Shown one piece after another: positions 12,992 through 16,642 of a stretch of DNA of 64,000 nt. A model generated the notes under the pieces. That model saw nothing but the letters and a program-made list of their open reading frames with translations. It was not told the origin of the DNA and searched no databases. The stretch is from assembly GCA_006738865.1 (NCBI GenBank), contig AP019701.1, forward strand, positions 735,001 through 799,000, written 5' to 3'. The position numbers were made by a program, and so were the translations under genes. Source of the stretch: Allostella sp. ATCC 35155. GTDB lineage: Bacteria; Pseudomonadota; Alphaproteobacteria; ATCC43930; Allostellaceae. Numbering within the stretch: position 1 is the first letter of the stretch; each line of letters starts with the position of its first letter.

Positions 12992-13129
12992 CGGGGGCTC
13001 CTTCAGGCTGGCGTCGGCGCACGACCTTGCGGGCGCGCGAATACGGCCCCTCGGGCATGAGTCCGTGGGGCCGGGCTGGTCTGGTTCCGCCGGTCAGGCG
13101 CGGCTGGCGATTGCGTGGGAACCGGCGGG

Positions 13130-13158
13130 TACTTAGAGAATGGCCCCGGCCGCGTCAA
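13130..13158 (-). promoter_or_regulatory. Candidate sigma-70 promoter of carAB
   Basis: On the minus strand TTGACG (13158-13153), a 17-base spacer and TAAGTA (13135-13130) lead toward carA. The -35 box is near consensus and the spacing ideal; the -10 box is a weak match. The inserted element begins only 8 bp upstream of the -35 (target duplication at 13166-13173), so the core promoter is intact but its upstream context has been replaced. Confidence 0.5.
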
Positions 13159-13165
13159 GGCAGGG

Positions 13166-13173
13166 CGGCGCTG
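13166..13173. repeat. Target-site duplication, left copy
   Basis: CGGCGCTG directly abuts the left inverted repeat. The same eight bases follow the right inverted repeat at 16635-16642. An 8-bp direct duplication is within the range made by IS1-family transposition. Confidence 0.85.
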
Positions 13174-13200
13174 GGTAGTGTCTCAGTTTGGAATCGGCGG
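13174..13200 (+). repeat. Left terminal inverted repeat of the element
   Basis: It begins GGTAGTGTCTCAGTTTG. The first 17 bases are identical to the right end in inverse orientation, and 24 of 27 match overall. It contains the stop codon of the adjacent 148-aa gene. Confidence 0.85.
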
Positions 13201-13629
13201 CCGAAACGGGATGGGCGACGCATCGCGATAAGCGATAATCTCGGGCAAGCCGTCCAAGGCGTATCGCTTCCTGTTTGAGACAGGATTGATTTCGCGCGTT
13301 GAGGCCCCCGGGAAGCACGTTGCTGGAATGATCCAAAAATGGTGCTGGTGCCAATAGCTCGGTCGTGTGAGCCACCCAACCCCGGCGCCCACTTTCGCGC
13401 GCAAGAGTTCCCGCCGAAGACCATCCCGACCGGGGTCGGTGTATAGCGGTACTGTGAGGAAATTCTCGCTGCCTTCCTCCTTCAGCAGGACGAGAAAGGG
13501 TCCTGGACGGTTCAGTGCTTGTGCCAGGTCAACGACATTGGTCAGGCAACCAGCGCACTCTTTCAGAAAATCGGGGTCGAGATAGACAACCAGACCCGGC
13601 GTGACTTCCTCGGACAATACAGACGCCAT
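13183..13629 (-). CDS. Hypothetical protein coupled to the IS1-like transposase
   Basis: I do not recognise this 148-residue protein. It starts 9 bp after the transposase stop with an AGGA site about 7 bases upstream of the ATG, so it looks translationally coupled to the transposase. No signal peptide or membrane segment is visible. A stretch RPGPFLVLLKEEGSENFLTVPLYTD has the strand-turn look of small PemK/MazF-like barrels, but the full family pattern is not evident, so this is only a hint. The final residues (PPIPN) and the stop codon are encoded by the terminal inverted repeat itself, so the gene belongs to the element. It could be an accessory transposition protein or a maintenance factor. 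Confidence 0.6.
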   Translation of the reverse strand: MASVLSEEVTPGLVVYLDPDFLKECAGCLTNVVDLAQALNRPGPFLVLLKEEGSENFLTVPLYTDPGRDGLRRELLRAKVGAGVGWLTRPSYWHQHHFWIIPATCFPGASTREINPVSNRKRYALDGLPEIIAYRDASPIPFRPPIPN

Positions 13630-13638
13630 AGCTATGTC

Positions 13639-14517
13639 CTAAGCTGCTCGCTTCTTGTACGGACCGCGCTTCCCGGCCTTCGCTTGCACGGCGTCGACCA
13701 TCTCGGCAATGTCCTCCATCGACCATAGCCGATCGCTGACACCAGCCGCCATCGCGGGCGACATGCGCAGCGTCTTATGGATGCGGGCGAAGTTGTAGAA
13801 CATGAAATAGAGCGCCTGCACGGCGTGGTGGTTCTCCAGCTTCCTGCTGAACCCGTTCGTCAGCCGCGTGAAGCGGCGCATCTGCATCCGCATCGTGAGG
13901 TTCTGGCGCTCGACATAGGAAGTCGAGACGTGGGCGATATCGGGCCGGCCGGTAATCGCCTCCTTCCGGGCGCCGATGCACTCGGCCGGGGAATAGCGGC
14001 CCTTCGCGCTCTCCGGCGCGGCGCCGTACAGCTTCACCAGCATGGCATAGTCGACGTCGGCCCCGAACGCCTCCTCGACCGCGACCAGGTAAGCCTTGTG
14101 TCCGTCCGTGGTGAGTTGCACCCGGTTGGCCAGGCGGCTGCGGAGATCGTCCATCAGCGCCAGAGCGTATTCGCCGTCCCGGCCGCCCGACAGGTAGCTA
14201 ATGACGAGCTTGCTGTCGGCGTCGATCGCGGTCCAGGTCCACACGTCGCCTGCTACGTCGGGCGCTGACTTCGCCGCCGCAACGTTCTTCTGCTTGGCGT
14301 AGCAGTAGGCCCAAATCTCGTCGCACTGGACCCGTGCCGCCTTCACGCCTCGGACATGCTCGTCGTGGTACGCTGCGCAGGCATTCCCCGCATCAACCAG
14401 CAGCTTCGTCACCGTGTTGATCGACACGTCGACCACGCGGGAGATCGACCGCATCGACGAACCCTCGCACAGTATAGCAAGGATTTGGACGCGCTTGGCG
14501 AGGGGCAGCTTGTTCAT
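13639..14517 (-). CDS. IS1-like family transposase (single ORF, DDE)
   Basis: 292 residues. An N-terminal helix-turn-helix ([33 protein letters not shown], residues 8-40) precedes an RNase-H-like catalytic domain. Candidate acidic residues are the D of QCDEIWAYC, the D of [10 protein letters not shown] and the E of [19 protein letters not shown], the last followed by the basic run seen in IS1-type enzymes. The enzyme cuts and joins the element ends, and the 8-bp target duplication agrees with this family. I chose ATG 14517 (MNKLPLAKR), where homology begins, although the GGAGG site is very close to it; the open frame runs up to 14658 and would overlap the Xre-ImmA gene. The gene appears intact. 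Confidence 0.87.
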
Positions 14518-14560
14518 GCCTCCATTATCTGAACTTGTATGCTTAGCGTCAAGCATAATG

Positions 14561-15658
14561 TCATTGTACCAACCGGAGATGCGGCGGACGGCGATCTGCT
14601 TCGGTCTCCCACGCTTGTGGGCCGTACATTGCTTCAAGCTCCTGGGGGAGGAGGTCAAGCAATTGGGAAAGTTGATCTATGGAATACCCGAGCTGTTTCC
14701 GATGATACTCAACCATTCTCTTGAGGAGACGCGGATGCTCGCGGGGCGGCTCGTTTGGTTCCCGTTTTCGATACCCGAGGCGGCTCATTTCCATCCAGAA
14801 CTGCTTCTTTTGGTATGGCGTAATAGCGCCCAACCTATCGGCCCTCACTGCAAGCGAAGCCATAGAGACCTTCCAGTATCCCTTCATATTCGCTAGTTGA
14901 CGCAGATCAAATTTCCGGAACTGAGGGCGCACCGCATCGGCCGGAGCCATGAACGCACCAGCAAATGCGTCCGCTTCGTCCTCCATCTCCACATCATCCT
15001 TAAGCGTGGTCGTATGAAGCACCATATGGCCCAGCTCATGCGCGAGCGTGTGCCGAATTCTATCTGCTGGCGCATTGATATTGATGAAGAATAGAATCGG
15101 CATTCCATCGATGCGTTGACTCATTGCATCAAGCAAGTCGGTCCCAAAGTCGCAGGGCACAACAATTGCCCCGTTGCTCTCCAGTAGCTGCACCATGTTT
15201 TCAACCGGCCCAGCAGGAAGCATCCATAGCTCCCGCAGGTTACGGGCAACATCTTCGATGTCCAGACGCCCTTTCTTCCCGCCATGATATTCATCCCGAT
15301 CAATCTCGGGAATAAATTGATTAGACTTGAGCGGGAAAGACAACCCAAGCCGCTGAATATGAATACGTCGGATATTCATCTCAGCGACGATCTTCCCGAG
15401 CGCCTTTGCCGAAAGCTTCTTGCGTTTTCGGAAATGAAATGGCGGGAATCCGTAAACTTGATCCGGCCTGGAGAAAAAGGAGAGCGGGAACCGCAGCGAC
15501 GCCGACAGCGCTCTCGCGGAATCGGCCGCAAGAGAAAGCACCCCGGTCTCATACTTTGACAATGTGCCCTGCGCGATCTGGCTAAGATCCGCCAGATCCG
15601 CCTGCGTCAGCCCTCGTGCCTCGCGGGCCAGCACAAGCATCCGGTGATTGAAGTCCAT
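14561..15658 (-). CDS. Xre-family regulator fused to ImmA/IrrE metallo-endopeptidase
   Basis: 365 residues with two domains. Residues 1-70 form a helix-turn-helix of Cro/CI type ([33 protein letters not shown]). The ImmA/IrrE part spans roughly 150-270 and carries the zinc motif HELGH in [14 protein letters not shown] and the downstream acidic ligand in [14 protein letters not shown]. ImmA-type peptidases cleave repressors (ICEBs1 ImmR, Deinococcus DdrO), and Xre-ImmA fusions occur as regulators in mobile elements and toxin-antitoxin-like modules. All catalytic residues are present. The gene starts 16 bp after the stop of the 181-aa gene and is in operon with it. The base composition is clearly less GC-rich than the chromosome. 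The substrate is unknown. Confidence 0.9.
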
Positions 15659-15674
15659 GGGTGCAATTGGCGAC

Positions 15675-16220
15675 TTACTGCCACCCCGACTGTCGGGTTA
15701 CGTCGATCCACCGCTTCGCGCCGGCAACGGCGTCCGAGGCCGGGATGATCGCGGCGCACCATTCGATGATCTTCCCTCGCGGTCGCGCAGCCTGTGTGCG
15801 CAAGTAGGCGGTCTCCGTGACATCGAGCAGGTACCCGATCGACACTCGCGCGGCAGGGGGAGGCAGGCCAGGGAGCGCACGGCCGCGATCGAAGTCCTGA
15901 GCCTGCTTCGTCGGGTAGTTCCTGGATCGGCCGTCTTCGTCCATCTTCTTGAACCGGATCACGGCCTTGTCCTCAATGATCCAGACCTTGAGCCCGCGGA
16001 TGTCCTTCGGCGCGATGCCGCGGCGGCCGGCGAAACGCCGCTCCGCATCCGCAAGCATGTGCGAGTAGACGCAAGCAGCCGCTGCCCTTCGATCATGCTC
16101 CACGAGATGCTGGGGCGGATAGCTACGATATCGCGCATGCGCCAACCGCGGAATCTCATCCAGATCGTCGATCAGGTGCTCCAAGGCACCCATCACGTCG
16201 CCCATCGTCCACTCGTCCAT
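15675..16220 (-). CDS. Hypothetical protein, second gene of the transposon cargo operon
   Basis: I do not recognise this 181-residue protein. It is soluble, with an acidic N-terminus (MDEWTMGDVMGALEHLIDDLDEIPRLAHAR) and a mixed charged middle (GLKVWIIEDKAVIRFKKMDEDGRSRNYPTKQAQDFDRG). I chose the ATG at 16220 because GGAGA lies 6 bases upstream; the open frame extends to 16316, but that start would overlap the upstream gene by 22 bp and has no clear site. It lies between the small KGG-motif gene and the Xre-ImmA gene with short gaps, so the three probably act together. A toxin or effector controlled by the Xre-ImmA protein is one possibility, unproven. Confidence 0.7.
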   Translation of the reverse strand: MDEWTMGDVMGALEHLIDDLDEIPRLAHARYRSYPPQHLVEHDRRAAAACVYSHMLADAERRFAGRRGIAPKDIRGLKVWIIEDKAVIRFKKMDEDGRSRNYPTKQAQDFDRGRALPGLPPPAARVSIGYLLDVTETAYLRTQAARPRGKIIEWCAAIIPASDAVAGAKRWIDVTRQSGWQ

Positions 16221-16294
16221 CTTCGTCTCCGAAGCATCTGGGGAGAAGAAAATGGCACGACCCGCGCCGGAATGAAAGACAATTATTCCTGAAA

Positions 16295-16534
16295 TTATTC
16301 CTTCGGTGCCGCCCACCGCTTTGCCGCCGCCTTCTTTGCGATCTCCGCCCGGCGCTCCGGCGTCATCCCCTCAGCGCGCGCCTTCCCGCCGCGCCGGCCG
16401 AGATCGACCGCCGCCTTGTCCTTGCCGTCGTCGGGGATGGTCTCTTCGATTTCGCCGGTTGCGATTTTCGCTGCCATGATGGCCGCGCCGATCACGTCGG
16501 CCGGACGGCGTTCGCCTTTTGGTCCTTTCGCCAT
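16295..16534 (-). CDS. Small basic KGG-motif protein, first gene of the cargo operon
   Basis: 79 residues. The core KAAVDLGRRGGKARAEGMTPERRAEIAKKAAAKRW is a widespread pattern in small proteins of unknown role often found on plasmids and mobile elements; the basic GG-containing repeat suggests nucleic-acid binding. A GGGAG site lies upstream of the ATG at 16534. It opens the leftward operon and its promoter should lie in 16535-16600, inside the right end of the element, though I could not define it. DNA- or RNA-binding is inferred from composition only. Confidence 0.72.
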   Translation of the reverse strand: MAKGPKGERRPADVIGAAIMAAKIATGEIEETIPDDGKDKAAVDLGRRGGKARAEGMTPERRAEIAKKAAAKRWAAPKE

Positions 16535-16607
16535 TCTCGCTCCCGCGTTCGATGCTTGCCGCTTAGCATATGGGGAGCCGGGCCGCCGAGGCGAGCGTCG
16601 TCAAGGG

Positions 16608-16634
16608 CGGCGGATTTCAAACTGAGACACTACC
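16608..16634 (-). repeat. Right terminal inverted repeat of the element
   Basis: Read inward on the minus strand it begins GGTAGTGTCTCAGTTTG, identical to the left end for 17 bases. Differences from the left end fall at positions 18, 23 and 26. Confidence 0.85.
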
Positions 16635-16642
16635 CGGCGCTG
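16635..16642. repeat. Target-site duplication, right copy
   Basis: CGGCGCTG, the same as 13166-13173, lies immediately outside the right inverted repeat and 38 bp before the nicotinamidase start. Confidence 0.85.

Follow-up and report, generated by a model that had tools for sequence, protein, structure and literature searches.

A small IS1-like element of Allostella sp. ATCC 35155 belongs to a family of cargo-carrying alphaproteobacterial mobile elements with two conserved genes

Small elements resembling insertion sequences (ISs) are usually regarded as transposase-only. The 64,000 bp window of the Allostella sp. ATCC 35155 genome analysed here (contig AP019701.1, positions 735,001 to 799,000) includes a 3461 bp element, at window positions 13174-16634, that represents, in intact form, a large alphaproteobacterial family of small mobile elements. 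Among 79 family members delimited at both ends all carry cargo, and the conserved core consists of two genes, for an IS1-like transposase and for a small protein here called C0, as C0 matches every one of the 79. Judged from sequence, the element is likely to be a unit transposon with this two-gene core, C0-type regulation and swapped cargo, which in the window copy would be a RosmerTA-like addiction or defence cassette. A first-pass annotation had described an intact IS1-like element with a single transposase and an XRE-ImmA/IrrE module, and this description, unusual beside ordinary IS1, was borne out. It was right that this is a single element, but it missed the large family and the cargo in all of its delimited copies.

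The inverted ends of the window element match at 24 of 27 positions, with the initial 17 bases identical, and perfect 8 bp target-site duplications lie directly outside them (Table 1). These ends and duplications had been read exactly in the first-pass annotation; an end-finder returned identical boundaries with all 8 of 8 duplication bases matching, and wider arms of 43 nt are 84 % complementary. A perfect 8 bp match outside two given ends would be expected by chance with a probability of about 1.5e-5 (4^-8). The host genome (5.34 Mb, one contig) has a single copy of the element, and the 17 bp end, with up to one mismatch allowed, occurs in that genome at two places, both of them ends of this element. 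The two repeats are thus the ends of one element, and the possibility that they belong to two separate IS copies does not hold. The five genes, all on the minus strand, are those for C0, a 181 aa protein, the XRE-ImmA/IrrE protein, the transposase and a 148 aa protein, so that the transposase and four further open reading frames (ORFs) originally annotated were confirmed by ORF reading.

Relatives of the transposase (E <= 1e-40) were found in 32 of 385 genomes of the class, counting the window's own, with one to three copies in each. GTDB species genomes were also scanned with an alignment of 16 transposases, and the best 80 of at least 554 confirmed candidate loci were kept. Together with the best 4 of 20 plasmid records from a transposase search and the window itself, this gave 85 places. 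Both ends were found at 79 of these, 73 of which were paired automatically via duplications, 72 of them perfectly, by the end-finder, which sought 8 bp duplications only. The others with both ends (L009, L059, L089, L097, L102 and L105) have no matching duplication, and L077, L083, L101, L106, L110 and L117 have one end or start at a contig end. The 79 elements are 2047-4251 bp long (median 3183 bp) and, with some 0.88 kb taken up by the transposase gene, all are longer than a bare IS. The first-pass annotation had suggested looking for further copies with other duplications. Two 3316 bp elements in one Sphingopyxis genome differ at no position and are flanked by different duplications, CGGAGCCG and CAATGCGC, indicating movement as a unit together with the cargo. 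In Tsuneonella rigui (L105, L106 and L110), where the shortest copy of 2047 bp was found, contigs break at the element, which suggests more than one copy.

The window transposase scores 29.6 bits against Pfam PF03400 (DDE_Tnp_IS1), above the cut-off of 24.1. The best of four NCBIfam models was NF033558 (IS1; 1.1e-16), but the score of 61.3 bits is under the equivalog cut-off of 100, and for this reason the transposase is called IS1-like and not IS1. It does not qualify as IS6, with 31.4 bits against NF033587 (cut-off 125). Target duplications in the IS1 family are 8-9 bp, and of the 73 elements delimited automatically, 72 have perfect 8 bp duplications and so agree with this size. The family therefore resembles IS1 in its transposase domain, its best NCBIfam model and its duplications, and differs in falling short of the equivalog cut-off, at least in the window copy, and in that 0 of 79 delimited copies is a simple IS.

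The C0 profile matches 79 of 79 elements, 78 of them with more than 70 bits, and a match is on the transposase strand and upstream of the transposase in every case. The C0 gene of the window element had been taken for cargo, but a protein that matches all 79 copies, one only partially, belongs to the core. A reverse search of the 385 genomes with C0 gave matches in 40 genomes; 37 were strong (E <= 1e-15). For 29 of the strong matches a transposase row is no more than 4.5 kb away; each of these 29 lies upstream of the transposase, and 27 are on its strand. C0 is near 33 of the 39 transposase rows in these genomes. A C0 search of plasmids returned seven records, and the two examined were L008 and L011, already in the set. 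C0 has no sequence match in Pfam, NCBIfam, PADLOC or the PDB; its C-terminal motif weakly matches phrog_2384 (PHROGs; function unknown). ORF clusters C1 and C4 overlap C0 on the opposite strand, were judged antisense and were excluded from the cargo labels.

In L051, C0 is matched twice, at both ends of the element and on different strands, the second match being on the minus strand. In ten elements (L051, L056, L063, L068, L073, L084, L088, L107, L108 and L119) a protein of 288-383 aa also hits the C0 profile (4e-13 to 7e-6) through a GGKARA...AARW-like motif, and the one tested, from L084, contains a P63C domain. Core and cargo may have this motif in common for a reason.

Eleven loci from the class genomes, ten with transposases at 40-58 % identity and L166, which is apparently the L046 copy, were re-examined with longer flanks. 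Nine have matching end pairs that begin with GG, duplications of 7/8 or 8/8 and lengths of 2.6-4.0 kb; no such end pair with duplication was found for L159 and L162, and L160, L162 and L163 gave no C0 match. L160 and L163 have distant transposases, other ends (GGTAGTGTCCTAATTTGA and GGTGCTGTCCTAAGTAGG) and perfect 8 bp duplications, and are cargo-sized without a detectable C0. As elements with distant transposases are cargo-sized and some have no detectable C0, the carriage of cargo extends beyond C0.

For the cargo scan each larger cluster was represented by one protein, with some single proteins added, and the counts that follow rest on clusters. Among the 79 elements, RmrA was found in 17, PD-Lambda-2_B in 10, P63C in 10, NYN in 7, an nSTAND ATPase in 7, OLD-like/HEC-04 in 4, Abi_2/AbiD in 4, PemK in 4, an SDH-type protease in 3 and Panacea in 2. 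At least one toxin-antitoxin (TA) or defence family is present in 45 elements, or 50 if STAND ATPases are included, counts made without a background comparison. No resolvase was found among the cargo proteins scanned. A RES/MbcA TA pair beside the transposase of an Acidiphilium plasmid (L008:4883-5721) was rejected as cargo; it is located where the element stops on the right and outside it.

Different cargo is found in elements whose transposases are 91-98 % identical, among them L055/L056 (97.6 %), L050/L092 (96.2 %), L048/L062 (95.9 %) and L098/L103 (94.6 %), so the cargo is not fixed. When 13 pairs were compared at the DNA level, similarity was mostly confined to four blocks, the 5' end (up to about 90 bp), C0, the transposase plus about 20-48 bp before it and the 3' end (about 25 bp). 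The cargo was also mapped on a tree of the 79 transposases, for which the bootstrap had not settled, and the changes were compared with shuffles. RmrA cargo (17 rows) required 16 changes against a shuffled mean of 15.5 and is unlinked to the tree, and all nine cargo labels jointly required 48 against 53. Within the RmrA cargo, cargo identity is uncorrelated with transposase identity (r = 0.05, 136 pairs), whereas C0 and transposase identities are correlated (r = 0.52, 3003 pairs). These comparisons indicate that cargo is exchanged around a constant core. The breakpoints point to wholesale replacement of the genes in each slot, most likely by homologous recombination through the C0 and transposase blocks.

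The main slot of the window copy appears to hold a putative toxin of 181 aa followed by an XRE-ImmA/IrrE protein that is the candidate antitoxin and protease. The latter matches PF06114 (6.3e-13) and PF01381 (5.3e-11), retains the intact HELGH motif noted earlier, and matches the PADLOC RmrA model PDLC03949 over residues 3-345 of 365 (7.2e-65); its one PDB sequence match is 9vzy_A (6.1e-5). Of the 79 elements, 17 enclose a protein of this cluster between such ends, which tells against the idea that the cargo always occurs without these ends. All 17 keep HExxH, and an adjacent upstream partner of 181-285 aa was called in 12, the window copy included. In six of the 17, all other than the window element, the RmrA cluster is accompanied by a second cluster, of which the one protein tested matches RmrT (3.8e-27).

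For the partner, the ORF start at GTG 16316 (213 aa) annotated previously is probably replaced by ATG 16220, as judged from relatives. The 181 aa protein belongs to no Pfam, NCBIfam or PADLOC family, has no PDB sequence match, and weakly matches a PHROGs family of unknown function. Its relatives are in L065, L076 and G186, and the one in G186 likewise has a transposase and C0 next to it. In the 385 genomes it was matched in three, namely the window's own, G186 and, partially, G303; a plasmid search with the 213 aa frame gave no match. The structure model is good (pLDDT 86.9, pTM 0.84). Foldseek found no PDB match at E <= 0.001, with human Rep15 listed first (0.099) and EcoRV from 0.15, and a viral structure library gave nothing significant. 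The matches of VIA-align, with Z values below 8 that may be due to chance, are mainly to restriction endonucleases, with NaeI best (Z 6.8, root mean square deviation 3.8, 135 aligned) followed by EcoRV (up to 5.8), BglI (4.6) and HincII (up to 4.2). A restriction-endonuclease-like fold of the PD-(D/E)XK nuclease type may thus be considered tentatively for this protein.

In excerpts of the report on RosmerTA (PMC10440598), an ImmA-domain antitoxin is paired with different toxins, the RmrTs being diverse, and one system is phage-protective. The window cassette likewise has a candidate XRE-ImmA antitoxin of RmrA type adjoining a variable partner. It differs in that it is known from sequence alone and its partner matches no recognized RmrT, and for the latter reason we refer to it as RosmerTA-like and not as RosmerTA. 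An addiction or defence role is plausible for it. The likely benefit would be addiction and abortive phage defence, guarding a single-copy element against loss.

An 18 bp palindrome, with the family sequence ATGCTTNNCGNNAAGCAT, was missed in the first-pass annotation. By position alignment it lies before C0, some 66 bp in from the end on that side, and again 39 bp before the transposase ATG. When 10 or more of the 12 arm bases were required, 48 of the 79 elements have it at the 5' end, 39 at the transposase and 34 at both, compared to 0.6-0.7 % per site for shuffles and 8 of 79 for the middle of the element. The 5' copy is associated with C0 type, being found in 48 of 65 elements with class I C0 and in 0 of 13 with class II (L107 is unclassed). 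In the window element the second copy covers the -35 of a predicted sigma-70-like promoter, and the position of this promoter stretch before the transposase is conserved across the family. The association with C0 type suggests that C0 binds the palindrome. As the same palindrome precedes both genes and overlies the transposase -35 in the window copy, a single dimeric regulator probably silences C0 and the transposase together, and C0, the sole other gene present in every copy, would be the best candidate for that regulator.

Many elements have a small ORF, mostly of 55-100 aa, between the palindrome and C0, and these ORFs mostly have no detectable kinship to one another. They are found where C0 starts past position 190 (e.g. 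L044:2667-2888, L054:7688-7975 and L084:2112-2345), and several overlap the C0 start in a layout reminiscent of anti-defence loci. The window element has none. Six picked by hand for a PHROGs search gave one weak match to a regulator and five without a match.

From the anatomy of the elements, an IS1-related DDE transposase would act on the GGTAGTGTCTCAGTTTGAA ends and generate the 8 bp target duplications. The core genes lie toward opposite ends, C0 toward one and the transposase toward the other, and are read in the same direction. A more specific proposal, which we put forward tentatively, is that this two-gene platform regulates itself, C0 repressing both its own gene and the transposase via the palindrome, and that three slots swap cassettes. 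The model for such repression is the logic of anti-CRISPR-associated (Aca) regulators. The slots would be one for a small pre-C0 gene, possibly for counter-defence, a middle one for the defence or TA cassette and one for a TA-type gene behind the transposase.

Table 1. Features of the Allostella element, in window coordinates
Feature	Position	Strand	Basis or remarks
Target-site duplication CGGCGCTG, left	13166..13173		Sequence reading and end-finder
Terminal inverted repeat, transposase side, 27 bp	13174..13200		Family consensus GGTAGTGtcTCAGTTTGAA from 79 elements
Slot-3 ORF, 148 aa, 3' of transposase	13183..13629	-	Frame extends into terminal repeat
Transposase, 292 aa from ATG 14517; upstream alternative TTG 14658	13639..14517	-	PF03400, NF033558
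Sigma-70-like transposase promoter TTGACG-17-GATAAT, predicted	14524..14552	-	1 in region against 0.9 expected from shuffles, weak alone
Palindrome ATGCTTGACGCTAAGCAT (minus strand)	14539..14556		12/12 arm bases; 39 bp 5' of transposase ATG, over -35
XRE-ImmA/IrrE protein, 365 aa, HELGH; RmrA-type antitoxin candidate	14561..15658	-	Pfam and PADLOC
Putative toxin, 181 aa, partner of XRE-ImmA (213 aa from GTG 16316)	15675..16220	-	Relatives
Core small protein C0, 79 aa, MAKGPKGERRPADVIG...IATGEIEE...GGKARA...AKRW	16295..16534	-	Profile match in 79/79
Second palindrome, just 5' of C0 (minus strand ATGCTAAGCGGCAAGCAT)	16552..16569		11/12 arm bases
Terminal inverted repeat, C0 side, 27 bp	16608..16634		Sequence reading and end-finder
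Target-site duplication CGGCGCTG, right	16635..16642		Sequence reading and end-finder

The slot-3 protein matches no Pfam, NCBIfam, PADLOC or PHROGs family and no PDB sequence, and has no relative in the 79 elements at the clustering cut-off used. Three congeners of the host have no occurrence of the 17 bp end (up to one mismatch). They were examined for empty sites, as suggested in the first-pass annotation, and all are without the element, but only the left flank, on the carA side, is syntenic and there is no clean occupied/empty pair. The sequence 5' of carA (window 13040-13165; loci L123-L125) is conserved in the three to about 13161 and then different in each, so that rearrangements seem to have occurred repeatedly in this intergenic region. 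For L076, a search of 61 Mesorhizobium genomes also gave no clean pair; variable repeats make up the left flank, and the right flank is kept to about the junction in several Mesorhizobium genomes that lack the element.

A number of findings weigh against the interpretation set out above. For C0 as a universal core gene, the match in L107 (46 bits) is partial and runs via a 288 aa ORF and a 57 aa ORF, and 8 of the 37 strong matches in the class genomes have no listed transposase nearby; of six of these eight loci that were examined, four have one terminal repeat close by and two have none. For C0 as a regulator, its structure model is weak (pTM 0.33) and had no structural match among the only three chains compared. 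C0 class is confounded with transposase clade, two elements with class II C0 (L093 and L109) retain, at the transposase, an almost perfect palindrome whose spacer is longer, and the palindrome is not universal, as 14 of the 65 class I elements reach the threshold at neither site. As to exchange, L050 and L054, with transposases 90.7 % identical, are both labelled RmrA, in opposite orientation, and PD-Lambda-2 cargo (10 rows) required 6 changes against 9.5 in shuffles and is thus in part inherited along with the transposase. In 34 of the 79 elements, or 29 when STAND ATPases are counted, the cargo was assigned to no TA or defence family. Finally, neither the 181 aa partner nor its L076 relative matches RmrT in PADLOC, and the partner has no profile similarity to the RmrT cluster (hhalign probability 0.1).

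The XRE-ImmA cassette might instead sense stress and regulate its own operon or the transposase, like ImmR/ImmA, and not be a TA or defence system. Control systems of the DdrO/IrrE and ImmR/ImmA types also combine an XRE domain with an M78 metallopeptidase, and the partner is no recognized toxin. In addition, ImmA acting as an antirepressor is described in excerpts of PMC10440598. We consider this explanation unlikely in view of the full-length RmrA match, the occurrence of the same cluster with the RmrT-matching cluster in six elements and the adjacent partner in 12 of 17; moreover, other elements lack the cassette, so it is not needed for the control of transposition. A role for C0 as a transposition accessory that binds the ends or the target, with the palindromes responding to the transposase or a host protein, is a more serious possibility, though a doubtful one. 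C0 is small, has a basic C-terminal motif and is encoded near one end, its predicted structure offers no repressor fold, and the transposase has its own weak, sub-cut-off Pfam match to HTH_38. However, the palindrome sits over promoters and not in the ends, and its 5' copy is associated with the type of C0, which favours the regulatory role.

The family could also be an ordinary transporter IS (tIS), an IS1-family element with passengers acquired once, in which the cargo and the small protein are incidental. Passenger genes within IS copies have been described generally (PMC3129680, PMC7986276 and PMC9330008, each in part), and the general definition, IS-type ends and a transposase around passengers unrelated to transposition (PMC3129680, PMC9330008), does cover the elements described here. 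As an explanation it is nevertheless improbable. The 79 delimited copies, down to the shortest, all carry cargo, and C0 is constant in presence, strand and side while the cargo varies around the core; incidental passengers would not yield a constant second gene. The often shared palindrome and the exchange of cargo further set the family apart from tIS.

Other transposons with comparable cargo are known. In Tn3-family transposons, TA modules have been repeatedly acquired and exchanged between transposons (PMC7157771, in part); here, the transposition module is unrelated, the elements are IS-sized, the cargo families are broader and the scanned cargo lacks a resolvase. Tn7-like transposons carry highly varied defence cargo (PMC8649781, in part), whereas the present elements have a single IS1-like transposase and, at 2-4 kb, space for few genes. 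A literature search, to which ISfinder, preprints and most subscription journals were external, found no paper whose title or start of abstract describes this family, and it is apparently undescribed, though passenger-carrying ISs are known.

As every delimited copy bears a cassette whose limits are set to the base by the duplications, the family offers a clean route to new defence and TA genes, and the 34 of 79 copies with cargo outside the assigned TA and defence families are material for finding new genes. The family is also suited to studying how cassettes are exchanged, and it exposes an unnamed small protein, C0, whose constancy among the copies comes close to that of the transposase. 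If the proposal of a self-regulated platform with swapped cassettes is true, such a platform would shuttle immunity genes across the Alphaproteobacteria faster than its transposase diverges.

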